Positions 37,158-50,955 of a stretch of 56,491 bases of DNA are shown one piece after another. Location: NCBI GenBank assembly GCA_007121535.1, contig SKKK01000025.1, forward strand, positions 1 to 56,491, written 5' to 3'. A program made the position numbers and the translations under genes. Below the pieces are notes generated by a model, which was not told where the DNA came from, did not search any database, and saw nothing but the letters and a program-made list of their open reading frames with translations. The stretch is from Planctomycetaceae bacterium. GTDB lineage: Bacteria; Planctomycetota; Planctomycetia; Pirellulales; Pirellulaceae. Positions within the stretch are counted from its first letter, which is position 1. Each line of letters begins with the position of its first letter.

Positions 37158-37885
37158 CGTAAAAGCCCGGTAGGAACCTCGTGGTTGTCGCTCGATTCGA
37201 ATTGACCCAAAAGGCAGAAGGATCGAAAAAAATGACTATCGATTTTTGGTGAGCGGCACGGCGCTAGCCGCCGGTGACGACGACCCATTCATTCCCGAAA
37301 AAACGGCTTTTGGCGCCTTGCAGGTCAAGGTGTCCAGGTGCAATGTGAGTGGCATCGGGCTAGCGCCATTCGGGTCTTGAGCAACGGTGGCTAGCGCCAT
37401 TGCTTCGGGAACCGGTGGCTAGCGCCATGCCGCTGGGAACCGGTGGCTAGCGCCATGCCGCTGGGAAACGGTGGCTAGCGCCATGCCGCTGGGAAACGGT
37501 GGCTAGCGCCATTCCGCTGGGAACCGGTGGCTAGCGCCATTCCGCTCAGTGATTGCTTTGTTGATGCTAACCCACACATCGATTGCTGGCAAGCGAAGGA
37601 AACGATCTTGCGTCCGGTTGATCATGGATGCGTCGCGCACTCCCACCGAAATCTCGCGGAAAAAAATTTTTCTCATCACACCACGCAGGGCCTATTCCCC
37701 ATCCCCGTTTCCCTGTACACTGCTGCCGTATGACGTGTTACAGAAAAATAATCCGTACGAAACTTCTTCAGCAAGAAGGGGGGGCTGAGCCTTGGGGATT
37801 GCATGCTGAAAACTAAGCAAACGCTGGATACATAACGACAATCCCGCACCTTTTTCTGGAACAGTCTAACCTTCAGGAGGTAGAA
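37158..37885. other. 728-base gene-free region rich in GCTAGC repeats, upstream of the DUF1559 gene
   Basis: It holds a half-site GAGCGGCACGGCGCTAGCCG then CCGGT at 37251-37275 and the tandem array at 37358-37548. The remaining sequence to 37885 contains no supported gene. A strong AGGAGGT ribosome-binding site (about 37876-37882) precedes the DUF1559 ATG. Confidence 0.7.
37358..37548 (+). repeat. Tandem array of about seven 28-bp GGCTAGCGCC units
   Basis: GGCTAGCGCC occurs at 37358, 37389, 37417, 37445, 37473, 37501 and 37529. The last six are exactly 28 bases apart with the unit GGTGGCTAGCGCCATTCCGC then TGGGAAC and few substitutions (T/G before CCGC, C/A before the GG). The first unit is degenerate. 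There are no spacers, so it is a direct tandem repeat, not a CRISPR. The same unit appears inverted downstream of the next gene. Confidence 0.92.
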
Positions 37886-38929
37886 ATGAAGAATAGACGG
37901 GGATTCACCTTGGTCGAGTTATTGGTCGTGATCGCCATTATCGGCGTGCTGGTCGCCTTGTTGCTGCCCGCGGTCCAAGCAGCTCGTGAGGCGGCTCGGC
38001 GAATGAGCTGTACCAATAATTTGAAGCAGATCACGTTGGCGCTGCACAACTTTCACGACACCCACCGGGCCTTTCCCACAGGCTCGCCGTCGCGAACCTG
38101 TCCCGGATACGAGCACATCCCAGCTTGGCAGTACCGCTGGGGCCCGCTGGCGATGCTGACGCCCTACATGGAACAGTTCAATCTGTACCAGTCATTGAAC
38201 CTGGACGTACCCCTTTATGGTCATACTGGGGTGTTCAATGGACCGGGAGTTGGAGTGCATCCGGACAATCACGAGGCTTTGACGCAGGAGGTTGCCTTCT
38301 TCTATTGTCCCAGCGATCAGGCACGTAAGCAATTCGTCCCGGACGCCGAGCTTGAATATGCCGGCACCAATTATATGGCATGCTGGGGCCGTGGCGCGCC
38401 GACGGCGACGGGCACCGCCGTTTTTGATACCGACGGGTTGTTCAACAACAATCGAGCGATTCGCTTTGCCGATGTCACCGATGGAACCAGTCACACTGCC
38501 GCATTCTCGGAAAGTTTACTGGCGACTGCCAACCTTTCGTTCGCCGGCGGCGAGATCCTCACGCGGCAGAACAGGGGACTGGTCGTCGTTGGGGAGCGCA
38601 GCAGTAACGATCCGTTCCTGACGGAAGAATTCTGCACGCGATTCGGTGAGCCCGTCGCCGCCCGCACCAGTCGCTCGGTACGCTGGTTCGACGGGTTTGT
38701 GCTGTACACGGCCTACTATCACTGGTGGGGGCCGAACTCGGAGATCCCCGATTGTTCGAAATGGGGGCCTTTACGATCTCTTTGGCAGATGGCCCGCAGC
38801 CGACATCCGGGCGGCGTCAACGTCAGCTTCGTCGACGGCTCGGTTCACTTCATATCCGACACGATCGATTTGGACACGTGGCGAGCGATGGGATCGCGCG
38901 ACGGCGGCGAAGTGATCTCGTCGTGGTAA
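37886..38929 (+). CDS. DUF1559 pilin-like protein
   Basis: A 347-residue protein of the large planctomycete DUF1559 family. The N-terminus MKNRRGFTLVELLVVIAIIG is a type IV prepilin/pseudopilin signal (cleavage G-F, N-methylation expected) followed by VLVALLLPAVQAAREAARR. The C-terminus carries the H-X9-DG motif (HPGGVNVSFVDGSVHF). The intervening domain has family features such as NNLKQITLALHNFHDTHRAF and FADVTDGTSHTAAFSE. AGGAGGT lies just upstream of the ATG. These proteins are thought to be surface or pseudopilus components. This one is bracketed by inverted tandem repeat arrays, suggesting mobility of the cassette or recombination between copies. Confidence 0.95.
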   Translation: MKNRRGFTLVELLVVIAIIGVLVALLLPAVQAAREAARRMSCTNNLKQITLALHNFHDTHRAFPTGSPSRTCPGYEHIPAWQYRWGPLAMLTPYMEQFNLYQSLNLDVPLYGHTGVFNGPGVGVHPDNHEALTQEVAFFYCPSDQARKQFVPDAELEYAGTNYMACWGRGAPTATGTAVFDTDGLFNNNRAIRFADVTDGTSHTAAFSESLLATANLSFAGGEILTRQNRGLVVVGERSSNDPFLTEEFCTRFGEPVAARTSRSVRWFDGFVLYTAYYHWWGPNSEIPDCSKWGPLRSLWQMARSRHPGGVNVSFVDGSVHFISDTIDLDTWRAMGSRDGGEVISSW

Positions 38930-38951
38930 GGACCGTCAGCGGAACAAGTGA

Positions 38952-39038
38952 GCGGAATGGCGCTAGCCACCGTTCCCGAAGCGGACTGGCGCTAGCCACC
39001 GTTCCCGAAGCGGAATGGCGCTAGCCACCGTTCCCGAA
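38952..39038 (-). repeat. Three 29-bp units of the GGCTAGCGCC repeat, inverted relative to the left array
   Basis: GCGGAATGGCGCTAGCCACC then GTTCCCGAA is repeated at 38952, 38981 (one change) and 39010. Its complement equals the unit of the array at 37358-37548. The two arrays face each other across the DUF1559 gene and could pair as a long-range hairpin or recombine. Confidence 0.9.
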
Positions 39039-39121: not shown

Positions 39122-39997
39122 ATGAATCGTTTGCATGCCAATCGTAGAATTGCCAAGATTTCCTGGATTGTCGCCACCTTGGTGTTGATCGCAGCGGTCG
39201 CGCGACCGGCTGTCGCCACCGAATCACCCACCCAGTTGTACCTGGTGGGGGTCGGGCCTGGCGATCCCGATCTGATCACCCTGCGCGCGATCGATACGAT
39301 CAAGCGGGCCGATATCATTTTCTGCATGGAAAGCATCAAGGAGCGGTTTTCCGAGCTGATGCAGGACAAACAGGTGATCCACGGATACTGGCGTCTGTTT
39401 CCCTTCTACGGCCAAGACATTGAAGATCTGGAGGGTGACCAGCGGGCCGAGGCCGAAAAACTGGCGGTCCGGCGAAACGAGTTCATCGCCATGGTTCGCA
39501 AGGCAGTTGCAGACGGAAAGACGATAGCGATCGTCGACAGCGGCGATCCGCTGATCTACGGACCGTGGGCTTGGACCATGGAGGAATTCGAGGACTTGAA
39601 ACCGGTGGTCGTCCCGGGGGTCAGCGCCTTCAACGCGGGAAACGCCGCGTTGCGGCGAGGGATCACGAACAGCGATTTCACGAACTCCGTCATCTTGACC
39701 GCCGCCGACTGGGAAGGCAAAACGGATACGATCGAACGGCTGTCCACACACCGGACGACCATGGCGCTGTTCACGATGCGGACGGAATTCGAGGAGTTTA
39801 TTCGCAAGTTGGCGATCAACTATCCGGCGGAGACGCCGCTGGCCGTCGTCAAATTCGCCGGCTATGCTGATCGAGAACAGGTGATTCAGGCCACGGTTGG
39901 GACCATTCTGGAAGAGGTTGGGCAGGAGGATCTGCCGTTCGAGTACATGATCTACGTGGGCGACTTCCTGAACTTTCGGTACCGGAAGGAACAGTAG
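39122..39997 (+). CDS. Apparently exported tetrapyrrole methylase-fold protein (CbiF-like)
   Basis: A 291-residue protein whose body is a tetrapyrrole (corrin/porphyrin) methylase: SAM-loop YLVGVGPGDPDLITLRAIDT near 41, DSGDPLIYGPWAWTMEEF near 140, VPGVSAFNAGNAALRRGI near 160, and PLAVVKFAGYADREQVIQAT. These match precorrin-4/CbiF-type enzymes. Unlike those cytoplasmic enzymes it begins with what looks like a Sec signal peptide (NRRIAKISWIVATLVLIAAV...AVATES). SAM is not expected outside the cytoplasm, so it may bind a tetrapyrrole or metal complex rather than methylate, or the segment may be an anchor. The DUF4198 gene follows after 44 bases, very likely co-transcribed. The fold is secure; the location and role are not. 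Confidence 0.85.
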   Translation: MNRLHANRRIAKISWIVATLVLIAAVARPAVATESPTQLYLVGVGPGDPDLITLRAIDTIKRADIIFCMESIKERFSELMQDKQVIHGYWRLFPFYGQDIEDLEGDQRAEAEKLAVRRNEFIAMVRKAVADGKTIAIVDSGDPLIYGPWAWTMEEFEDLKPVVVPGVSAFNAGNAALRRGITNSDFTNSVILTAADWEGKTDTIERLSTHRTTMALFTMRTEFEEFIRKLAINYPAETPLAVVKFAGYADREQVIQATVGTILEEVGQEDLPFEYMIYVGDFLNFRYRKEQ

Positions 39998-40041
39998 GTT
40001 CTTTCCCAACTGGGTAACACAAAATCCAAGCGAGAAACAAG

Positions 40042-40893
40042 ATGATTCAAAAGAACATGGCACGTGCCCGATTTTGTTTGGTTGCGATCTTCGCAGCGGT
40101 TTCTTCATTTTCGTTCACACCGGCGGCCGTCGGTCATGAGGTCTGGATCGAGGCTGATGTGTCGGCCACCGTGGGACAGGAAATGGACGTGTGGCTGTAT
40201 TGGGGCCATGCGGGCAACAAAGAAAGCGGTGATCGTCTGGCGGCTCAGTTGAGCAAGCTGACGGCGTTTGCCCAGACAGCCGGCGGCCGCGAAGTTCTGG
40301 AACTGGAAATGGCCGATGACGGTTTCGTCACGAAGTTCACGCCCGAGACTCCGGGGTATGTCGGACTGGGCGCAGAACTGCAGGTGGGCATCGTCGATCG
40401 ACAAGTCCACTCGATTCCCGCTTATACCCGCATCGTGATGTACGGCAAAACGATCACTCGCGTCGCGGGCGACGTTCAAGCGAGGCCCGCTCCGATCGGC
40501 TTGGATCTGGAATTGGTCCCGGTCGCTCCGGATGCTCAGCCGAAGGTCGGTGATCTGATGACGGTTCGCGTCTTGCACAAGGGGCAGCCCGTTGGCGGCC
40601 GTCAGGTCCAGATCAGAGCGGCCACGGTGGGCGGTCGCCAGACGATGGATGACCCGCGAGTGCAGAATTGGGAGTGGTCGACCGAAGCGATGGCCGACCC
40701 GCGGACCGGCGAAGCAACCTTTCCGTTGATCGTCGCCGGCCAGCACCTGTTCATCGTCCGGTACACCGACGAGACCCCCGGAACTTACGACGGGCCGCGA
40801 AACGACAAATCGGACTTCAGCTACCTGAGGCCAGGGGACACCTTCGAACGGACCATGCACGTTTCGACGCTGACCGTCCAAGTCGCCGAATAG
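40042..40893 (+). CDS. Exported DUF4198 protein, candidate metal-uptake component
   Basis: A 283-residue protein with a signal peptide (RARFCLVAIFAAVSSFSFTP...VGHE), so the mature N-terminus would start HEVWIEAD with a histidine, as in many DUF4198 proteins. Two beta-rich domains follow; the second carries the Ig-like RVLHKGQPVGGRQVQIRAAT and GEATFPLIVAGQHLFIVRYT. DUF4198 proteins include periplasmic parts linked to nickel or cobalt transport. Paired with a tetrapyrrole methylase-like protein, handling of a metal or corrinoid outside the cytoplasm is plausible but unproven. ATG 40042 follows GAGAAACAAG; ATG 40057 is an alternative. It is convergent with the EF-hand gene. Confidence 0.82.
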   Translation: MIQKNMARARFCLVAIFAAVSSFSFTPAAVGHEVWIEADVSATVGQEMDVWLYWGHAGNKESGDRLAAQLSKLTAFAQTAGGREVLELEMADDGFVTKFTPETPGYVGLGAELQVGIVDRQVHSIPAYTRIVMYGKTITRVAGDVQARPAPIGLDLELVPVAPDAQPKVGDLMTVRVLHKGQPVGGRQVQIRAATVGGRQTMDDPRVQNWEWSTEAMADPRTGEATFPLIVAGQHLFIVRYTDETPGTYDGPRNDKSDFSYLRPGDTFERTMHVSTLTVQVAE

Positions 40894-41672: not shown

Positions 41673-42077
41673 GCAACCCTTCCTCTGGAAAAAAACGGGA
41701 CGCTACTTCAGTGATTTCGATCGCCGATGCAGCCTTCCTTTACTATAATCAAACAGCTCGACCGATGCCAGGTTTGCCAAGGCCGGAGCGACCGAGTGGC
41801 AGCGGCCAACGAACCTGGGAACTTAGCGCGTTCAGCCTCGTCCAAATATGGGGTATCACGTATTTTGGGGACGATTCTCGCCCGTCGAGTCGATCACGAG
41901 GCCGCCCAGTGAACTTAACGATTTTACCGATCGTATCAGGCGCATCGCCCGCGACGCCGCTCTTCGAACTCGGAAATGATGGACGTTTTTGGTCGATTCG
42001 TGCGATCAGTAAAGATGCGTCACGTGGACACTTAGGGGAAAATAGGCAAATCAGAAATTTTAGCATTGACGAGAGCT
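41673..42077. other. 405-base divergent intergenic region
   Basis: This lies between the EF-hand gene and the giant secreted-protein gene, and must hold both promoters. A perfect TATAAT hexamer occurs at 41744-41749 on the plus strand but without a convincing -35 partner. No coding sequence or strong palindrome was seen. Confidence 0.45.
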
Positions 42078-45000
42078 ATGTTACTTAACAAACTGACCGC
42101 GCGTGCAAAACGATTCATCGCTCGAACCCGCCGATCCTCTCGAACCCGCGATCGCGGGCGTCGCACCTCGATGATCTTTGAATCTCTGGAAAACCGAAGC
42201 CTGCTGGCAGCGGATCTGCTGCAAGCTTTGTCTTTCGAGGATGCTGGTGCCTCGGCCGCATCGGAGTCTGTGGCAAGTACGACCTCGATGGCAAGTACGA
42301 CGTGGGCGGGGCCTGTGTCGACGATGTCGGTCGGGGAATCCTGGATGTCCGAGGCGGAAGGCGAATGGGCTGCCGAGGGGGAAGATGCCCCGGATCTTGT
42401 GGCATTTGCCAAGGCATTGACCGACGCCGGGGCGAAGATGTACACCGCGGCATGGTGTGCCTTCTGTTCGATGCAAAAACAGCTCTTTCAGGCTGGAGGC
42501 TCGTACCTGCCGGCCATCGAGGTCACCAATCCGGACCGAACGTTGAACGAGGTGGGCATCGAGAACAACATCACCAGTTTTCCCACTTGGGAGTTTCCCG
42601 ACCAGACGCGCGAATCAGGTCTGCTGGATCTGCAAACGCTTTCCGATCGCAGCGGGGTACCGATTCCCACGTCCAGCATTCCCTACCTGAAGCCGATCGA
42701 AGACAAGACGCTGCTGGCGACTTCGCCGCTGCATGTCGCTTTGGACGGCTACGATCCGAAGGGTGGTCCGTTGACGTACACGGTCAGCAGCGATAACCCT
42801 GAGGTCGAAGCGACGTTGATCGAGGGCAACCGGAGCATGAGGATCGAGGTTGCCGGATACGGCGATATGGTGTTTCAACTGTTCGAGCAGCGGGCGCCTC
42901 GACCGGCGGGGCGCGTGATCGAATTGGCCGAGTCGGGTTTTTACGACGGGATCCTCTTTCACCGGGTGATCGACGGATTCGTGATTCAAGGGGGCGATCC
43001 CACCGGTACCGGCACGGGTGGTTCCACCTTGGGTACGTTCGATGACCAGTATCACGTCGACCTGCAGCACAATCAAGCGGGCATTCTCTCGTTTGCCAAA
43101 TCGGCGGACGACACGAACGATTCGCAGTTCTTCGTCACGCTGGCGCCGACCCGCCACTTGGATTTCAATCATTCGATTTTCGGCATTCTGGTCGAAGGGT
43201 TGGACGTTTTACAGGCGATCGGCAGCACCGCGACGGGTGAAGGCGATCGTCCGATCCACGACATCCAAATGAATACCATCGAGATCTTTCAGGACACCGA
43301 GAATGCCGTGATGATGCTGAAGGCGGATCCGGAAGCGATCGGTCAACAAGCGAACATCACGGTCGCGGTCGACGATGGATTGGGCAACCAGACGCAAGAG
43401 ACTTTCCTGGTGACGGTAGCCGAGGATCCGTTTAATAGCGGCCCGTTCCTGGAAGATCTTCCCGATTTCGAGACCGCAGTGGGAACTCCCCTTGAAATCC
43501 AATTGTCGGCGATCGACGTGGAAGGCGACCCCGTGTTCTTCGACGCGGCGCCTGCTGGCAGTGTCGAATCGACGGTCGAAGTGGACAACGAGACGGGCCT
43601 GGTGACGGTGACGCCACCAGCCGGATACGTCGGCCCGATGCAAGTCTTGGTCGGGGTCCAGGCGTGGGACGGATCGGATCGATCCGATCCATGGGATACG
43701 CAGGTTGTCAACATCAACGTCGTGGGCGAACAGTTGCAACTGGAACTGGAACTGCTGCCCGAATCCGACTCGAACATCGTTGGTGATAACGTAACGAACA
43801 TCACCGAGATGACGTTCCGGATCAACAATACCGCCCCGGGGGGGCAGGTGCAGATCCTGTACAATGGCGCCGTGATCGGACAGGGTACGGCGACGGGAAC
43901 CAGCATCGACATCACCACCGACAACTTGGCAGCGTTGGGCGACGGCGTGTACCCGCTGACCGCGGTGCAGACGATCGATGGCGTTGCCGGCGATCCCTCG
44001 AACGAATTGACGGTCACCTTGGATACCACCCCGCCGGTTCCGCTGACTTCCACGCCGCCCACCACGGCGACCAACGGAGTCGAGTTGGTCTATGATGCAC
44101 AGCATCCGGAAGAAGGGACGCCTGGCTTCGAGTACTCGCTGGTCGATCCACCGCAGGGAGCCACGATCGATCCGGTGACGGGTGTGATGCGTTGGACACC
44201 CATCATCGATCAGGGCGGTGTGAACACGTTCCAGATCCTTGTGATGGATCTGGCAGGCAACACGCAGACTCAGGATCTGGCGATCGATGTGACGGTGGCA
44301 GAGCAACTGGTGATGATCGAGCTGGTCGTGGTCGATCAGGAGGAGAACCCCATCTCGACGATCACGGCGGGAGGAGAGTTTTGGGTCATCGCCTATGTCG
44401 AGGACTTACGCGAGCCGGCCGAAGGCGTCTTCGCTGCTTACGTGGACGTGCTATACGACCCGTCGATGGTCACCAGCCTGACCACCTCGCTTGCGGACGT
44501 GGAATTCGGCGACTTGTATCAGAATGGAAAATCCGGATTCTTTACCACTCCGGGACTGTTGGATGAAATCGGTGCGTTCGGGCCGACGTCGCCGGTCGGC
44601 GGCGGCAAAAAGGTGCTGTTCGCCGTTCCCTTCCGAGCCGACGAAGGGGGGCAGACAACGTTCGTGCTGGAACCGGCGGATCAGGTGGGCCGCGAGGTCT
44701 TGTTGTTCGGTCAGAACGAGCCGGTGTCATCGAACGCGGTCACCTTTGTCGATGCTGCTCTGAACGTGGAATCCGGGTTGACGGCCGTCGACGATCTGTT
44801 CAATGTGGACGAAGACAGTATCGCTTTCCCCTTGGATGTCCTGGCGAACGATGTCAACGAGACGGGCTTGCCGGTCGAAATCATCCAGGTGGGATTGACC
44901 AGCCAGGGAGGCACGGTGGAAATCTCGGGCGACGGACAGCAGGTGTTGTACACACCGTTGTCGAATTTCTTCGGCGAGGAAACCTTTACGTACACGATTG

Positions 45001-47024
45001 CCGCCGGCGATTTGACCAGCACGGCCAGCGTGACGGTTCAGGTCGCGCCGGTCAACGACCCGCCCACAGCCGTCGACGACGAATTCACGGTGGGGTTGAA
45101 CAGCGAAAACAACTTCCTGGACGTGTTGGCCAACGATCACTTCGATCCGGACGTAGACGAGGTTCTGCGGATCGTTAGCGTCGGTCCGACCAGCCATGGC
45201 GGCGAGGTGGTGATCGCTCCTAACGGCACCCATCTATTGTACACTCCCGCGACCGGGTTCTCGGGCGTCGAGACTTTCACGTATACGATCCGCGATCGCG
45301 CGATCACCGATCCGACAGGCTTGGAGGACACCGCGACGGTGCGGGTCAACGTCGATACCTCGCCGCGCCCCACGGCGGTGAACGACACGGCGACGGTCGA
45401 CGAGGATTCTGTCGATAACCCGATCTTCGTCCTGGAAAACGACTCGCCGGCCGAACCGGGAGCGGCGTTGACCGTGATCGAGGTGTCCGACTCGAAATTC
45501 GGCGGTACGGTGACCATCGCTGCCGACGGTTCCCACGTGCTGTACACGCCCTTCCCCGATTTCTTCGGCGAGGACACCTTTACGTACACGATCGAGGAAG
45601 AAGACGGCGGTCGAGCCACGGCTTCGGTGACCGTGACCGTACTGAACGTGAACGATCCACCGACGGCCAACGACGATTTCTATCAAATCAGCAAAGGCGC
45701 CGGGACCAGAACCCTGGACGTCCTGGAAAACGATACGTTCTTCCCGGATGTCGATGAAGTGCTGACCATCATCGCCGTGACGCAAGGTTCGATGGGCGGC
45801 ACCGTCGAAATCGCGGCGGATGGAAAGAGCATCTTGTACACCCAGTCCGATGATCCCAGTCTGCCGGATACCTACACCGAAACGTTCACCTACACGATCG
45901 ACGACGGGTCCGGTGCGGAAAACTCGACGGACTCAGCCACCGTCACGATCGACATCCGCCCGTTTACGACGCGCGTTTTGGGCGGGATGGTGACCGATGC
46001 TCAGCTTCACAAGGGGATCGGCGGCATGCCGATCCGTCTGACCGGGATGGACGTGTTCAACGGCCAGGTGACGTTCCATAGCCGTTCGTCGGGCAGCGGA
46101 CAATATCTGTTCAACGATCTGGCGCCGGGCAGCTACCAAGTCGAAATGGAGGAAGTCCCGTTCCTGCTGACCCCGAACAATGTCTTGACCGTCGAATCGT
46201 CCGACGAAGACGGCGACAATCTGAGTTTGAATTTCGACTCGGCGACTCGCGATCCGGCCTCGCTCAGCATTTATGACTTCTTGGCTCGCGCGCCCGGTCA
46301 ATCTTCGCTGGCTACGTCCCAATCGGTGATGATCGCCGCCGAAACCGGCCGGTCGCAACATTGGTATTCCTATCAGGCCGGTTGGCAGGACTACTCGAGT
46401 CTGGATGCCCAGTTGTCCAGCGATGGCAAGATGCTAACCATCGAGACCGTCGCCAGTAACGGCCAGCAGCATCGGGGAACCCTGAATCTGGACGAAGTGA
46501 CGTACGTCAAGCGTTTGGCCAATTCGGGTGATTCGCATCTGATCCGAATCGACGCCAGTCCCGAACAGATGGGATTACAACCGATCGGTTCGGTTCCCAC
46601 AGTGACCGTCACGCCGCTGACCACCACCAGCACGACCCCCGAGATCACCGGCACGGTCAGCAACGGAACGCTGGAAGTGACGGTCGCCGATCAGACGTAC
46701 TCGGCCGGAGACGGCGATCTGCAGGTTGTCGGCACCGATTGGATGCTGCAGATTCCACCCGGTGATGCCCTGGATGTGGGAACGTACACCGTGATTGCCA
46801 CGGCCACCGATGCTGAGGGCAATGTGGGGACCGACGCGAATACCAATCAGTTGGTGATCCTGGCCGACGAATCGGGAGCCGAGGGTGAGGCCTTGGATTG
46901 GGTATGGTCCGACGAGGATTTCCCGGACCAGATCCAGGATGCTTCGCTTCCGGAATCCCAGACGTCCGAGGACGATTACGCCCAGGCAGTCGATCTGCTG
47001 TTGGCCTTGGATGCCGCTGCCTGA
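42078..47024 (+). CDS. Giant secreted protein: thioredoxin-like + cyclophilin + cohesin-like + tandem-95 repeats
   Basis: About 1648 residues from ATG 42078 (a TTG at 42066 is weaker). The Arg-rich N-terminus leads to IFESLENRSLLAADLL, the planctomycete export/anchoring signature. A thioredoxin-like domain has the redox motif WCAFC near 124-128. Residues about 255-405 are a cyclophilin peptidyl-prolyl isomerase with FHRVIDGFVIQGGDPTGTGT and SQFFVTLAP; the catalytic Arg is kept. Ig-like domains follow, then a cohesin-like domain (about 745-895), four tandem ~95-residue repeats of the 'VDEDSxxxPLDVLANDxxxxG' type (about 898-1295), a Cna-B-like domain (QYLFNDLAPGSYQVEMEE) and a C-terminal Ig-like domain. 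It should act outside the cell, perhaps folding or cross-linking surface proteins. Enzymatic activity of either domain is inferred. Confidence 0.9.
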   Translation: MLLNKLTARAKRFIARTRRSSRTRDRGRRTSMIFESLENRSLLAADLLQALSFEDAGASAASESVASTTSMASTTWAGPVSTMSVGESWMSEAEGEWAAEGEDAPDLVAFAKALTDAGAKMYTAAWCAFCSMQKQLFQAGGSYLPAIEVTNPDRTLNEVGIENNITSFPTWEFPDQTRESGLLDLQTLSDRSGVPIPTSSIPYLKPIEDKTLLATSPLHVALDGYDPKGGPLTYTVSSDNPEVEATLIEGNRSMRIEVAGYGDMVFQLFEQRAPRPAGRVIELAESGFYDGILFHRVIDGFVIQGGDPTGTGTGGSTLGTFDDQYHVDLQHNQAGILSFAKSADDTNDSQFFVTLAPTRHLDFNHSIFGILVEGLDVLQAIGSTATGEGDRPIHDIQMNTIEIFQDTENAVMMLKADPEAIGQQANITVAVDDGLGNQTQETFLVTVAEDPFNSGPFLEDLPDFETAVGTPLEIQLSAIDVEGDPVFFDAAPAGSVESTVEVDNETGLVTVTPPAGYVGPMQVLVGVQAWDGSDRSDPWDTQVVNINVVGEQLQLELELLPESDSNIVGDNVTNITEMTFRINNTAPGGQVQILYNGAVIGQGTATGTSIDITTDNLAALGDGVYPLTAVQTIDGVAGDPSNELTVTLDTTPPVPLTSTPPTTATNGVELVYDAQHPEEGTPGFEYSLVDPPQGATIDPVTGVMRWTPIIDQGGVNTFQILVMDLAGNTQTQDLAIDVTVAEQLVMIELVVVDQEENPISTITAGGEFWVIAYVEDLREPAEGVFAAYVDVLYDPSMVTSLTTSLADVEFGDLYQNGKSGFFTTPGLLDEIGAFGPTSPVGGGKKVLFAVPFRADEGGQTTFVLEPADQVGREVLLFGQNEPVSSNAVTFVDAALNVESGLTAVDDLFNVDEDSIAFPLDVLANDVNETGLPVEIIQVGLTSQGGTVEISGDGQQVLYTPLSNFFGEETFTYTIAAGDLTSTASVTVQVAPVNDPPTAVDDEFTVGLNSENNFLDVLANDHFDPDVDEVLRIVSVGPTSHGGEVVIAPNGTHLLYTPATGFSGVETFTYTIRDRAITDPTGLEDTATVRVNVDTSPRPTAVNDTATVDEDSVDNPIFVLENDSPAEPGAALTVIEVSDSKFGGTVTIAADGSHVLYTPFPDFFGEDTFTYTIEEEDGGRATASVTVTVLNVNDPPTANDDFYQISKGAGTRTLDVLENDTFFPDVDEVLTIIAVTQGSMGGTVEIAADGKSILYTQSDDPSLPDTYTETFTYTIDDGSGAENSTDSATVTIDIRPFTTRVLGGMVTDAQLHKGIGGMPIRLTGMDVFNGQVTFHSRSSGSGQYLFNDLAPGSYQVEMEEVPFLLTPNNVLTVESSDEDGDNLSLNFDSATRDPASLSIYDFLARAPGQSSLATSQSVMIAAETGRSQHWYSYQAGWQDYSSLDAQLSSDGKMLTIETVASNGQQHRGTLNLDEVTYVKRLANSGDSHLIRIDASPEQMGLQPIGSVPTVTVTPLTTTSTTPEITGTVSNGTLEVTVADQTYSAGDGDLQVVGTDWMLQIPPGDALDVGTYTVIATATDAEGNVGTDANTNQLVILADESGAEGEALDWVWSDEDFPDQIQDASLPESQTSEDDYAQAVDLLLALDAAA

Positions 47025-47113: not shown

Positions 47114-47244
47114 GCGATTGTGTTCTTCGTGCTCGTTACTGCCAAGGCTGCTCTGCCAAGAACACGCCCACCTGCTTTTCCGCTGCTTTCCCGGTAAACT
47201 AAGGGAAATGTCCTTTTTGGGTTTGTTTGGCAAAGGCGACGGTC

Positions 47245-50200
47245 ATGGGGTCTTCGAATCGGCGGTTCCTGCGGTATTTCTTGGTCGGGTGCTTCGCCCT
47301 TGCATACACCGGAGCGTTGGCGATCGAGAGTCAACATGCCCAGTCCCAAAGCAAATCAGACGGGCAGCCCGAGGTCGTTCAACCGATCGAGATCGACAAG
47401 CGGTTGATCGCCCATTGGACGTTTGACGAGTCGGATGGGGATTGTCTGGATCGCAGCGGCAACGCTTATCATGCGCGGCCGCGAGATGGATTCGACGGTC
47501 ATCTGACGCGAACCGGCGGCATTTTCGGTCGCGCAATGCGATTTTCCGGTCGGCACATGCTGGCCGTGTTGGGCGACGGTCAGCCGGATCTGTCGGAGAT
47601 CCAGCACATCAGCTTTTCCGCCTGGGTCCAGGTCGATGGATTTGCTCGCTATGACGAGATCTTTCGTAAAGAAGACGGCAGCGATCGGGTGTTGTTTTCC
47701 TTCCAAGAACACATGACGTGTTTGACTCTGGGTCTGAACATCGACGGGTATGTGGAATTGCGGGCGCCGATCGATCCCAAGGCCATCGTTGGTACCGGCT
47801 GGCATCACTGTGCGGCCACCTTCGATGGCCAAACGATGCGAGTCTACTGGAACGGTCAGGAAATCGGGGCGCTTCCACGACCCGGTCGGATCCAAGCCGG
47901 CGATCGCGCGCCGGGTTGTATCGGTTCGACCAACGGGAACGAATGTTTGCAAGGAGTCATGGACGATCTGCGGATCTACGCCGATGCGTTGACGGCAGAC
48001 GAAGTCGCGCGGCTGTACCTGAACGGGGTGCAAGCGATGACCGAGGCCGACAAGCGGGTGGCCGAACAGGTCGCGTTGGTTTACCAGCCCGCCGATGATT
48101 TCGCGGGAACCCTGGCAGCCATCCGCCGAAACCTGGCCGACCATGACATCACGCCCAGCCCGCTGTTGGTTCAAGTCCTGCAAGCTCGCTTGACAGCCGA
48201 ATTCGCCGAACCGTTGGCGCGTCTGACCGAGTACACCGAAAGGCCGCTGATCGATCACCTGTCGGCGACGGGCACCGATCTACAACTGCCCGCTGCACGA
48301 CGGCTGATCGAATTGCTGCTGGAGTACCGACCGCTGACCGACGACCAGTGGGCGCGGCAGAGCCCTGCGGACCTGGAACAGTGGAAGCAGCGAGACCGGA
48401 TCGCCGAACGTTTCGAGGCGCTGGTGAACCAAGGCTCGGCTGCGACTTTCTCGCCCGAATGGGTGCATCTGATCTTGGATGCAGGCGATCGAATCGATTT
48501 CCGGCCCCGAGTCCACGAGCCTGTGGCTCCGTATATTACGCCATCGACGCCCCAGACAAGAGATCTGACGCCGATCGAGGCTCGGGAGGCGCTCGAACGC
48601 GACTGGCTGCACCAAGGCAGCGGTCAAACGCCAACGGTCGTCGTGCAGGGAGTCCGCTCGTGGAACCGGGCCGCCGGGTTATCGACGGCTGCGCCGACCC
48701 CCGAGACGATTCGCGAAGAAATCCAACGCACGTGGGAACTGGCCGATCGCATTCAAGCTCACCCCGGCGGGACCGTCTGCTTGGAAGACCAGCGAACTCG
48801 GCTACGAGACCTGGAGGCTCGGGCCGCCGAGTTGACCGAAGGCGACACGCGCCTGTATTTCCAGATCCGCGAGGTGAAGCGCGAGATCATGTTCTTGAAC
48901 CCGGTGCTCGATTTCAGCCGGGTGCTGTTGATCGACCAACCCTTTCCGCAAGGTCGCGAGTGGCAGCATGAGACCCGCCATCGTCTGGGCTATCAAGCCG
49001 TGCCGGGCGGTCGGTTGCTGGTCCTCGAAGGACTCGGCCCCGATGGGCGGCTGACCCAATTGATGCCCCAGACACCGCTGCACGGTTCCTTTTGGCGTCC
49101 CGATATCTCGTTCGACGGGCAACGCGTCCTGTTTTCCTACAAACCTCATAACGAAAAGGCCTTCCATCTGTACGAGATCGGCGTGGATGGTTCCGGACTT
49201 CGCCGATTGACCGACGGGATCTATGACGATCTGGACCCGATTTATCTGCCCGACGATCACATCATGTTTTCGACGACTCGCGGGCACACCTACGTCCGCT
49301 GCATGCCACCCACCAACGCCTTTGTCCTGGCGCGGTGCAACCCGGACGGCAAAGACATCTACCTTGTTTCGCGCAACAACGAACCGGATTACCTGCCGTC
49401 GCTGATGAACGATGGCCGAGTGATCTACACCCGTTGGGAGTACACGGACAAACCGCTGTGGCGAGCCCAAGGACTGTGGACCGTCAACCCCGACGGCACT
49501 CAGGTGCAAACGTTCTGGGGCAACCAGACCGTTTGGCCCGATTTGATGAAGGACGCTCGAGCCATCCCCGGCAGCCGTCGCGTGATGTTCACCGGCAGCG
49601 CCCACCACAACTGGTTCGCCGGCACGGTCGGCATCATCGACCCCGATCGGGGATTCAATTTCCCCGACGGCCTGACCAAAGTGACCGCCGAACTGGTCTA
49701 TCCCGAATCGGGCGACGGTCCGGTCGATCCCATCGAATCGCCTCGCTACCGGCCCAGCGGTTCGTATGCGGCTTACTATTCCCCGTACCCGCTCAGCGAA
49801 CAGGACTTCTTGGTTTCGGCCGATCGAGGCGGCAAGTTTGTCCTGTACTTGATGGACACGGATGGCAACCGGGAACTGATCTACGAAGGCCAGCATCACG
49901 CGTTCTATGGCATGCCGCTCCGCCCGCGGCCTCGACCGCCCGTGATGCCCGACCGGGTCACCTGGCCAACTCGCCAACAGCGAGACGACCCCGCGCCGGG
50001 CATCATCTTCAGCGGGAACGTGTACGCCGGAGCCCCGCCCGAGCTGCAGGGCAAGGCGCGGATGCTGCGGGTATTGAACATCGAACACAAGACCTACACC
50101 TACTGGTACCGGCGACCGTATCTGTCCACCGGACCTGTCGTATCGGCCGTCCAATCGGACGGGGTGAAAAGGATCCTCGGCACCGTGCCGATCGAGCCGG

Positions 50201-50955
50201 ACGGATCGGTGTCGTTCAACGCGCCCGCCGGGCTTCCGTTACATTTTCAGTTGCTGGATGAACGCTACCGCGCGTTGCAGACGATGCGCAGCTTTACCGG
50301 AGTTATGCCGGGCGAACGACGCGGCTGCTTGGGCTGCCACGAATCGCACAGCCGAACCCCCGTTCATGAAGGCGGCAGCCTGGCGCTGTTGCGCCCGCCA
50401 CGGGACATCCAAACGCCGCCTTGGGGCGATGCCTCGGTCAGCTTCCCCCGTTTCGTTCAACCGGTACTGGATCAATACTGCGCACGTTGTCACCAAGGCG
50501 ACGGGGAAGCTCGCCAGGTACTCGATCTGACGGACCGGCCCGGATTCCTGATCTTTTCGGAACCGTACATGCACTTGACCGGCCGCCCGACCTGGAATCG
50601 ACCGTATCAACCGCCCGAAAACCCGCCGCCCGGATTCGGTTTTGCCGACATGTTGCACGTCGAAGGCTATCTGGAGACCGATCCGGTCGCCTATCAAACC
50701 CCGCCACCGATGACCGCCCTTTCCTATCGGAGCCGATTGATCGACATCGCCTCCAGCGGCCAACATCATGACGTTCAGGTCGATCCGATCAGCCTGCGAA
50801 AGTTGATCGCTTGGGTCGATACGATGGCCCCCTACCGAGGCGCCGAAGAGATCCGCGAAATCGACGACCCGGACTTCCAAGGCATCGACTGGCTCTCCAT
50901 CCGCCCCCGAGTCAAAACCGCCCCGATCATCACCCGCCCCGGTCCCGTCGATTGA
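47245..50955 (+). CDS. Exported LamG / HzsA-related protein with two CxxCH heme-type sites
   Basis: About 1236 residues from ATG 47245 (TTG 47227 is upstream). The signal peptide is RFLRYFLVGCFALAYTGALA. A LamG/concanavalin-like lectin domain (about 45-270; LIAHWTFDESDGDCLDRSGN, GVMDDLRIYADALTADEVAR) is followed by a helical region. A TolB/PD40-like propeller (about 620-890; SFDGQRVLFSYKP, VMFTGSAHHNWFAGT) leads to a C-terminal region like the middle domain of hydrazine synthase alpha. CLGCH (near 1028) and CARCH (near 1079) are c-type heme sites. The family is widespread in planctomycetes that do not perform anammox, so hydrazine synthesis is not implied. Role unknown; probably a periplasmic or surface glycan-related or redox protein. 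Confidence 0.88.
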   Translation: MGSSNRRFLRYFLVGCFALAYTGALAIESQHAQSQSKSDGQPEVVQPIEIDKRLIAHWTFDESDGDCLDRSGNAYHARPRDGFDGHLTRTGGIFGRAMRFSGRHMLAVLGDGQPDLSEIQHISFSAWVQVDGFARYDEIFRKEDGSDRVLFSFQEHMTCLTLGLNIDGYVELRAPIDPKAIVGTGWHHCAATFDGQTMRVYWNGQEIGALPRPGRIQAGDRAPGCIGSTNGNECLQGVMDDLRIYADALTADEVARLYLNGVQAMTEADKRVAEQVALVYQPADDFAGTLAAIRRNLADHDITPSPLLVQVLQARLTAEFAEPLARLTEYTERPLIDHLSATGTDLQLPAARRLIELLLEYRPLTDDQWARQSPADLEQWKQRDRIAERFEALVNQGSAATFSPEWVHLILDAGDRIDFRPRVHEPVAPYITPSTPQTRDLTPIEAREALERDWLHQGSGQTPTVVVQGVRSWNRAAGLSTAAPTPETIREEIQRTWELADRIQAHPGGTVCLEDQRTRLRDLEARAAELTEGDTRLYFQIREVKREIMFLNPVLDFSRVLLIDQPFPQGREWQHETRHRLGYQAVPGGRLLVLEGLGPDGRLTQLMPQTPLHGSFWRPDISFDGQRVLFSYKPHNEKAFHLYEIGVDGSGLRRLTDGIYDDLDPIYLPDDHIMFSTTRGHTYVRCMPPTNAFVLARCNPDGKDIYLVSRNNEPDYLPSLMNDGRVIYTRWEYTDKPLWRAQGLWTVNPDGTQVQTFWGNQTVWPDLMKDARAIPGSRRVMFTGSAHHNWFAGTVGIIDPDRGFNFPDGLTKVTAELVYPESGDGPVDPIESPRYRPSGSYAAYYSPYPLSEQDFLVSADRGGKFVLYLMDTDGNRELIYEGQHHAFYGMPLRPRPRPPVMPDRVTWPTRQQRDDPAPGIIFSGNVYAGAPPELQGKARMLRVLNIEHKTYTYWYRRPYLSTGPVVSAVQSDGVKRILGTVPIEPDGSVSFNAPAGLPLHFQLLDERYRALQTMRSFTGVMPGERRGCLGCHESHSRTPVHEGGSLALLRPPRDIQTPPWGDASVSFPRFVQPVLDQYCARCHQGDGEARQVLDLTDRPGFLIFSEPYMHLTGRPTWNRPYQPPENPPPGFGFADMLHVEGYLETDPVAYQTPPPMTALSYRSRLIDIASSGQHHDVQVDPISLRKLIAWVDTMAPYRGAEEIREIDDPDFQGIDWLSIRPRVKTAPIITRPGPVD

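Follow-up and report, generated by a model that had tools for sequence, protein, structure and literature searches.

Hydrogenases and other enzymes need traces of nickel, cobalt, tungsten and molybdenum, and the ways in which bacteria gather such metals outside the cytoplasm are only partly known. In a Planctomycetaceae bacterium (GenBank assembly GCA_007121535.1, contig SKKK01000025.1), a gene for a protein of the tetrapyrrole methylase fold starts with an apparent secretion signal and precedes a gene for a predicted exported DUF4198 protein, of a family linked to nickel. What would such a fold do beyond the cytoplasm? We address this question for the whole 56,491-nucleotide stretch of DNA analysed, called the window below, and for relatives of the protein, called TPm, in other genomes. 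We lean towards TPm being a repurposed, exported and non-methylating form of the fold that serves as an accessory of trace-metal uptake.

A methylase-fold protein paired with DUF4198

On the forward strand of the window, a DUF1559 gene, the TPm gene and a DUF4198 gene follow one another (Table 1), the last two with 44 bases between stop codon and ATG. The Pfam TP_methylase model (PF00590) matches TPm over the whole domain (152.4 bits, model positions 2–211 of 212), and the partner matches the Pfam model of DUF4198 (63.9 bits against a cut-off of 34). A previous sequence-only reading of this DNA had proposed methylase motifs behind a Sec-like signal, followed 44 bases on by an exported DUF4198 protein with a mature N-terminal histidine; the motifs that it quoted are present and its coordinates are exact. 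In the comparison of the window's genome with a close relative (G000–G001), dN/dS is 0.112 for TPm and 0.165 for DUF4198.

The closest known sequence family is CbiF/CobM, the precorrin-4 C11-methyltransferase, which also provides the closest solved structures (PDB 4e16 and 1cbf). TPm keeps the SAM-loop positions of that family but differs from it in its signal segment, in several replaced CbiF-invariant positions and in its score of 120.5 bits for the CbiF/CobM equivalog TIGR01465, against a cut-off of 259.65. The score for the CobA equivalog is 82 against a cut-off of 185, and TPm stays below cut-off in every one of the best 25 NCBIfam models listed. A structure prediction from three near-identical sequences reached a mean pLDDT of 52.7.

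Table 1 Features of the TPm locus (window positions)
Feature	Position	Strand	Remarks
DUF1559 (SBP_bac_10) protein, type IV prepilin-like N-terminus	37886..38929	+	
TPm, TP_methylase-fold protein (P0001) with signal segment	39122..39997	+	291 aa; ATG at 39122
N-terminal signal segment of TPm	39122..39220	+	about residues 1–33; predicted cleavage near AVA-TES
GVGPGD loop, residues 43–48	39248..39265	+	conserved with ordinary TP methylases
Residues 139–151, DSGDPLIYGPWAW	39536..39574	+	D142 kept; D139, P148 and W151 at NirE K102, R111 and E114
Residues 165–175, PGVSAFNAGNA	39614..39646	+	N171 invariant and N174 nearly so in the TPm family, not in CbiF-like proteins
DUF4198 (NikK-like) protein (P0002) with signal	40042..40893	+	283 aa; ATG at 40042
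Signal of DUF4198 protein	40042..40134	+	predicted cleavage before H32; alignment of 7
Codon of H32, predicted mature N-terminal His	40135..40137	+	alignment of 7; precedent in available part of PMC12537917
Codon of H56 (WGH motif), candidate second Ni ligand	40207..40209	+	7/7; putative equivalent of IsDUF4198 His18, the two being unaligned

TPm forms a patchily distributed family

We read 31 TPm members in total, all within Planctomycetota, 30 of them from the window's order and one from another. Placed in a tree with three CbiF and two CobA rows, they come together as a single clade (support 100/99). Carriage is patchy, even inside one family. With a profile built from eight relatives, 21 of 396 genomes in the order sample match at E 1.3e-94 or better, the next match being at 7.7e-31, and a second, weaker group resembles CbiF and CobA. 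The phylum sample holds such a protein in 2 of 392 genomes (3e-140 or better; next 8.5e-30), the class sample in 7 of 397 (E 1e-40), the window's own family in 12 of 241 and family f17 in 14 of 119 (both at E 1e-60), these samples overlapping. Two genomes, G002 and G806, each contain one copy of type I, the nickel-linked branch, and one of type II, linked to tungsten and molybdenum.

Beyond these samples, a single-query scan of genome contigs gave two near relatives, and viral contigs gave one distant relative. None of 306 plasmid records covers 80% of a TPm fusion protein, and the annotated plasmid matches among the 40 listed are CobA, CobM, CobJ or CysG.

Gene neighbourhoods were compared over 30 TPm loci, which are not independent (four type I loci come from one genus) and several of which stop at contig edges. 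Genes in these loci were called by a codon-score caller of our own; transporter and regulator labels derive from probes that include those same genes, and were checked against libraries.

A signal-like segment is kept as its letters change

The N-terminal segment of TPm reads ..VATLVLIAAVARPAVATESPTQLY. In a crude hydrophobicity scan of our own (not SignalP; at most 58 residues upstream of GxGPG, any start codon), which is biased towards positives by this freedom of start and by the choice, in four fusion proteins, of the ATG giving the strongest segment ahead of the fused domain, all 30 members from the window's order have a hydrophobic N-terminal segment (best 11-residue Kyte-Doolittle mean at least 2.1), followed in 28 by a lenient A-x-A-like pattern. 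We take this to exceed chance. In the same searches, ordinary TP methylases, some of them in frames with long read-through upstream, stayed below 1.6, the one exception being a partial ORF of 153 aa (L101, 2.54). Twin-arginine export as the general route was rejected, since a twin-arginine-like pattern occurs in only 2 of the 30 signals.

A mis-called start, by which a cytoplasmic protein would appear to have a signal through a spurious upstream frame, was rejected because divergent relatives keep the signal-like segment despite its changed letters. In three pairs, dN/dS is 0.58–1.2 for residues 1–33 and 0.09–0.15 for the mature part. The partners of TPm look exported as well: DUF4198, the prepilin-like DUF1559 protein and, by eye, a molybdopterin-fold protein encoded separately at one type II locus (L119).

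G1013, a divergent TPm from outside the window's order but within its class, has 41 residues ahead of the motif, none of them forming a hydrophobic segment. In the tree it groups with type II members that do bear a signal (81/67), so loss of the signal or a fault in the assembly is plausible; as it stands, this protein implies that part of the family may act in the cytoplasm. Its gene (L156, G1013:C408, 5236–6162) adjoins an HTH–PBP_like gene and one for a 67-aa TOBE protein, and the protein may be a cytoplasmic TPm in a molybdenum context.

Catalytic positions are replaced in the pocket

TPm and ordinary methylases have in common G43xGPG, G141-D142-P143, P165-G166-S168, A172, A175, F217 and V279-G280. 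At the SAM-loop positions P46, D142, I145, S168 and A169, residues are identical or changed conservatively, the last four positions corresponding to the NirE SAM contacts D105, I108, T133 and A134. Other positions that matter in NirE are not kept. According to the available part of PMC4731766, mutation of K102, R111, E114 or R149 lowers or abolishes NirE activity, R111, E114 and R149 contact uroporphyrinogen, and K102 and M186 matter for SAM binding. In TPm, the columns of K102, R111, E114, E115 and R149 hold D139, P148, W151, T152 and S184, all replaced, and that of M186 holds T218; CbiF also differs from NirE at both K102 and M186. The NirE numbering was mapped by motif spacing and checked on one CobA row, NirE itself being unaligned. 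A HMMER alignment of TPm to 4e16 pairs the same columns and a small MAFFT alignment with one CbiF places a gap there, so the residue mapping is alignment-dependent. This comparison of kept and replaced residues covers 27 of the 30 members (three gene calls lack the motif), with the CobA group as one row that carries K/R/E/E/R at the NirE columns.

The replacements are family-wide. Column 151 is Trp in 25 of 25 TPm members, Glu in 32 of 32 CbiF-like proteins and Glu in 24 of 29 CobA-like motif matches (only entries fitting the motif pattern are counted, and one of the 29, L061, is not CobA-like). All 25 aligned members share P148, W151, N171, T218, Y275 and Y278, a count that leaves out L061, whose frame holds fused genes; residue 278 differs in G1013. 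As catalytic residues are replaced, with P148 and W151 invariant in the family, precorrin methylation by TPm appears unlikely, and the invariant new residues suggest that a different ligand or reaction is under selection. The idea that a methylase might work here where SAM is absent, raised by the earlier reading, thus loses ground at the very columns on which NirE depends.

Some type I members lie near nickel and cobalt import genes

The window's DUF4198 protein resembles known nickel binders in several respects. NikK and NikL are parts of the nickel uptake system NikKMLQO (available part of PMC2667541), and the DUF4198 protein of Ideonella, IsDUF4198, binds nickel by means of its N-terminal His and of His18, with a Kd of 18 nM (available part of PMC12537917). 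Like the latter, secreted protein (PDB 9GCB), P0002 has a signal, a His predicted at the mature N-terminus and another conserved His, and so combines the features of the NikK/DUF4198 family, its cleavage site being a prediction; all 7 aligned pair members have H32 and H56. It differs in that its match to the NikK entry 9gcb is weak (E 3.1e-4) and restricted to residues 121–189, outside the His region; nickel binding by P0002 is putative. Matches to the chains 9mhk and 9mhi are at E 6e-6 and 2e-5.

DUF4198 adjoins TPm in 7 of the 30 loci and lies two genes away in one more (G000, G001, G002, G003, G639, G554, G564 and G806 in all). Conservation of the pair, which the earlier reading had made a test of its idea, holds only in these neighbourhoods; the remaining loci have no DUF4198 near TPm. 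In G000, G001, G002 and G003 (the last 63% complete), the sole full-length DUF4198 found is the pair's own. In 11 genomes of f17, a DUF4198 match lies at most 705 bases from a CbiM match and away from TPm, an independent tie of planctomycete DUF4198 to the CbiM importer.

The most telling locus is that of G806 (L150), where the DUF1559, TPm and DUF4198 genes are followed on the same strand by those for a CbiM whose C-terminus is NikL-like, for CbiQ and for an ABC ATPase (CbiO); the frames of TPm and DUF4198 are 2 bases apart. By its gene content, this run is predicted to encode a nickel/cobalt ECF transporter. Its CbiM (L150, 4818–6101) has a NikL-like C-terminal part, 40% identical to the NikL of G564 and containing a His-rich loop, and is apparently a natural NikM–NikL fusion. 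In G564 (L111), a DUF1559–TPm–DUF4198 run faces CbiM (cut by the contig end), NikL, CbiQ and CbiO, the NikL passing its NCBIfam cut-off (155.1 against 100). The link of DUF4198 to nickel and cobalt drawn by the sequence-only reading is supported by such relatives, in or beside Ni/Co ECF genes. Cobalt genes nearby, for which it had proposed a search, are present in G806 and G564, the 2 of 30 loci in which TPm is linked to M, L, Q and O importer genes, but not beside the pair in the window's own genome: there CbiM, CbiQ and CbiO (66, 52 and 69% identical to their G806 counterparts) lie on contig C429, unlinked to the pair on C440, and no NikL was seen beside them. A metal transporter of any kind is near TPm in 5 of the 30 loci; about half of the loci, many from f17, have neither a partner domain nor a transporter.

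At the level of genomes, CbiM is found in 14 of 24 carriers of TPm (and missing from 10) against 6 of 24 hand-picked non-carriers, a comparison confounded by kinship. Of 12 carrier genomes tested, 11 have matches to the NiFe-hydrogenase family, among them the window's own, in which one such match lies in a stretch that we read; a nickel demand of carriers is likely. Urease was rejected as the nickel user, being found in 1 of 12 carriers tested.

Cobalamin synthesis offers a different setting for such a fold. No cobalamin genes were recognised beside TPm in the 30 loci, and CbiD was not found in 23 of 24 carrier genomes. The one exception is a short contig, G001:C719 (L045), with CbiD and several TP methylases, which may be a true pathway or contamination. 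For the window's genome, a place of TPm in the cobalamin pathway was rejected, as we found there only two TP_methylase genes, TPm and one of CobA type, and no CbiD.

The commonest neighbour of TPm is DUF1559, directly beside it in 19 of the 30 loci, compared with 6 DUF1559 genes among 220 others in these loci. A single clade (99/97) unites 13 of the 20 cassette DUF1559 proteins, and none of the seven others enters it; this clade, to which the window's protein belongs, travels with TPm, and the DUF1559 proteins beside type II members fall in other groups. In G002, a DUF1559-like gene lies directly before CbiM and away from TPm (L149, G002:C52, 7065–8782).

The G806 cassette thus resembles NikKMLQO in its DUF4198, CbiM/NikM, NikL-like, CbiQ and CbiO components, as do the genes that face one another in G564. 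It is unlike NikKMLQO in its additional TPm and DUF1559 genes, as the window's genome is in its unlinked importer. In the literature searched, TPm and DUF1559 are nowhere described as extras of NikKMLQO; among the matches listed, none for TP_methylase with nickel and related terms holds the phrase, and none for DUF1559 with metal terms holds DUF1559.

Some type II members lie near probable tungsten and molybdenum genes

Of the seven members in the sister group, five have a molybdopterin-fold domain, fused to TPm or encoded next to it, and three have genes of Tup- or Mod-type transporters as neighbours; the type II group including G096 and G1013 has a support of 90/93. TPm is fused to an Oxidored_molyb-like domain in L040, L151, L152 and L153, and in L119 this domain is a separate upstream ORF (28.9 bits). 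Against a Pfam cut-off of 24, the fusions score 39.9 bits in L151, 23.7 in L153 and 22.7 in L040, so that only L151 and L119 pass; in L152, where Pfam gives no Oxidored_molyb match at E 1e-5, the domain was assigned by similarity to L040 or L119.

Three of these fusions adjoin transporter genes. The order is ModE-like HTH, fusion, TupA/B-like, ATPase in L040 and fusion, TupA/B-like, ATPase in L153, TupA and TupB being in both the best-named matches, below NCBIfam cut-offs. The fusion of L152 adjoins ModA (212 against 62.5) and ModB (235.6 against 182.6), both above NCBIfam cut-offs. Regulators flank four type II loci: ModE-like but below cut-off in L040 (65.5 bits against 98.5), an HTH with PBP_like in L119 and L152, and an HTH only in L151, as seen by Pfam. 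Type II TPm is like the TupABC and ModABC tungstate and molybdate transporters in its gene company at L040, L152 and L153, and unlike them in the fusion itself, of which we found no described component in the literature searched; among the matches listed for a tetrapyrrole methylase with tungstate or TupA, none holds the phrase. Across this divide, W151, N171 and Y275 are common to nickel-linked and tungsten/molybdenum-linked members.

What an exported methylase fold might do

From the fold, signals, branches, gene order and replaced residues, which can be read in the sequences, we infer a role in metal uptake through non-enzymatic binding and hand-over. With a secretion signal gained and the site for tetrapyrrole methylation lost, a TP-methylase fold would now work outside the cytoplasm. 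In the nickel branch, TPm would work with the DUF4198/NikK-like protein and the pseudopilin-like DUF1559 protein: it may bind a metal-bearing ligand or complex in the old cofactor/substrate cleft and pass the ligand or the freed metal to DUF4198, which would feed the CbiM/NikM–CbiQ–CbiO importer. In the tungsten/molybdenum branch, the fold would act with the Oxidored_molyb-like domain, alongside Tup- or Mod-type genes. TPm stays constant and its partner varies with the metal (DUF4198 and CbiM, or the molybdopterin fold and Tup/Mod), for which an extracytoplasmic uptake accessory is the simplest account. Most likely, TPm acts as a binding partner and not as a methylase. That one largely conserved, non-methylating pocket serves both nickel/cobalt (with DUF4198 and ECF) and tungsten/molybdenum (with Oxidored_molyb-like and Tup/Mod) is a tentative idea that we hold to be somewhat less than probable; such a general module would probably bind a common organic chelate or a metal-gathering surface pseudopilin.

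For the function of TPm, we rank chelate binding ahead of chelate modification or the holding of DUF1559. As an exported enzyme with a non-precorrin chemistry, TPm would modify or break a metal chelator and so release the metal to DUF4198 or TupA/ModA. The conserved polar and aromatic set D139, W151, N171, N174, R220, Y275 and Y278 does resemble an active site, its W151, N171 and Y275 are found on both sides of the metal divide, and TPm is under purifying selection; no candidate substrate is at hand, however, we know of no non-methylase enzyme of the TP_methylase fold, and we regard this reading as unlikely. Little weight falls, too, on TPm as an assembly factor or holder of the DUF1559 pseudopilin-like protein, with metal operons as one use of the complex: the frequency of DUF1559 as a neighbour (19/30) and the single clade of 13 of the 20 cassette proteins speak for it, but 11 of the 30 loci have no immediate DUF1559, and type II members associate with other DUF1559 groups.

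Two further readings keep TPm closer to its ancestry. An exported binder of tetrapyrroles (corrinoid, heme, F430 or porphyrin), which would scavenge nickel or cobalt with the ring, gains from the use of the same fold by CobA, CbiF and NirE to bind tetrapyrroles, from the nickel binding of the partner family and from the 23 of 24 carriers without CbiD. We nevertheless consider it quite improbable: the residues of NirE that contact uroporphyrinogen (R111, E114, R149) are replaced, the invariant pocket residues persist in type II proteins beside tungsten/molybdenum transporters, and importers of CbiM type take metal ions rather than rings. The sequence-only reading had suggested a repurposed corrinoid- or heme-binding protein in metal or corrinoid scavenging; repurposing for metal scavenging agrees with the Ni/Co ECF and Tup/Mod-type genes nearby, and it is the corrinoid or heme part that fits poorly, given the carriers without CbiD and a pocket largely kept beside tungsten/molybdenum transporters. 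Finally, TPm as an active SAM-dependent methyltransferase, acting beyond the cytoplasm or charged with SAM prior to export, seems very improbable. Its SAM-loop positions are kept or conservatively changed, as would be expected of a SAM binder, the twin-arginine-like signal of two members could export a folded, loaded protein, and G1013 is without a signal; yet 28 of 30 members lack a twin-arginine-like pattern, the SAM-binding K102 and M186 of NirE (available part of PMC4731766) are D139 and T218 here, albeit with CbiF also differing at both, and the literature searched gave nothing on a periplasmic SAM-dependent methyltransferase. In the papers searched, mostly non-subscription ones, there was likewise no description of a signal-bearing or periplasmic tetrapyrrole methylase. 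Free SAM is, to our knowledge, not expected beyond the cytoplasm.

Were TPm indeed an accessory of metal uptake, an enzyme fold of the B12 pathway would have moved outside the cell's interior for a new task, a clear case of repurposing. The same reading would warn against annotating such genes as methyltransferases, and it adds to the NikKMLQO and Tup/Mod systems a further component that can be tested.

Further observations in the window

A scan of the window for promoters and terminators gave nothing useful. Tandem-repeat arrays with units of 28–29 bases lie on either side of the DUF1559 gene, at 37385–37546 and 38951–39038, and their units look like mutual reverse complements around GGCGCTAGCCACCG. 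Two large proteins are encoded beyond the pair: one of 1652 aa (42066–47024) that combines a cyclophilin domain with cadherin/Ig repeats and matches Planc_extracel below its cut-off, and one of 1242 aa (47227–50955) with a LamG domain and a match to the middle domain of hydrazine synthase alpha.
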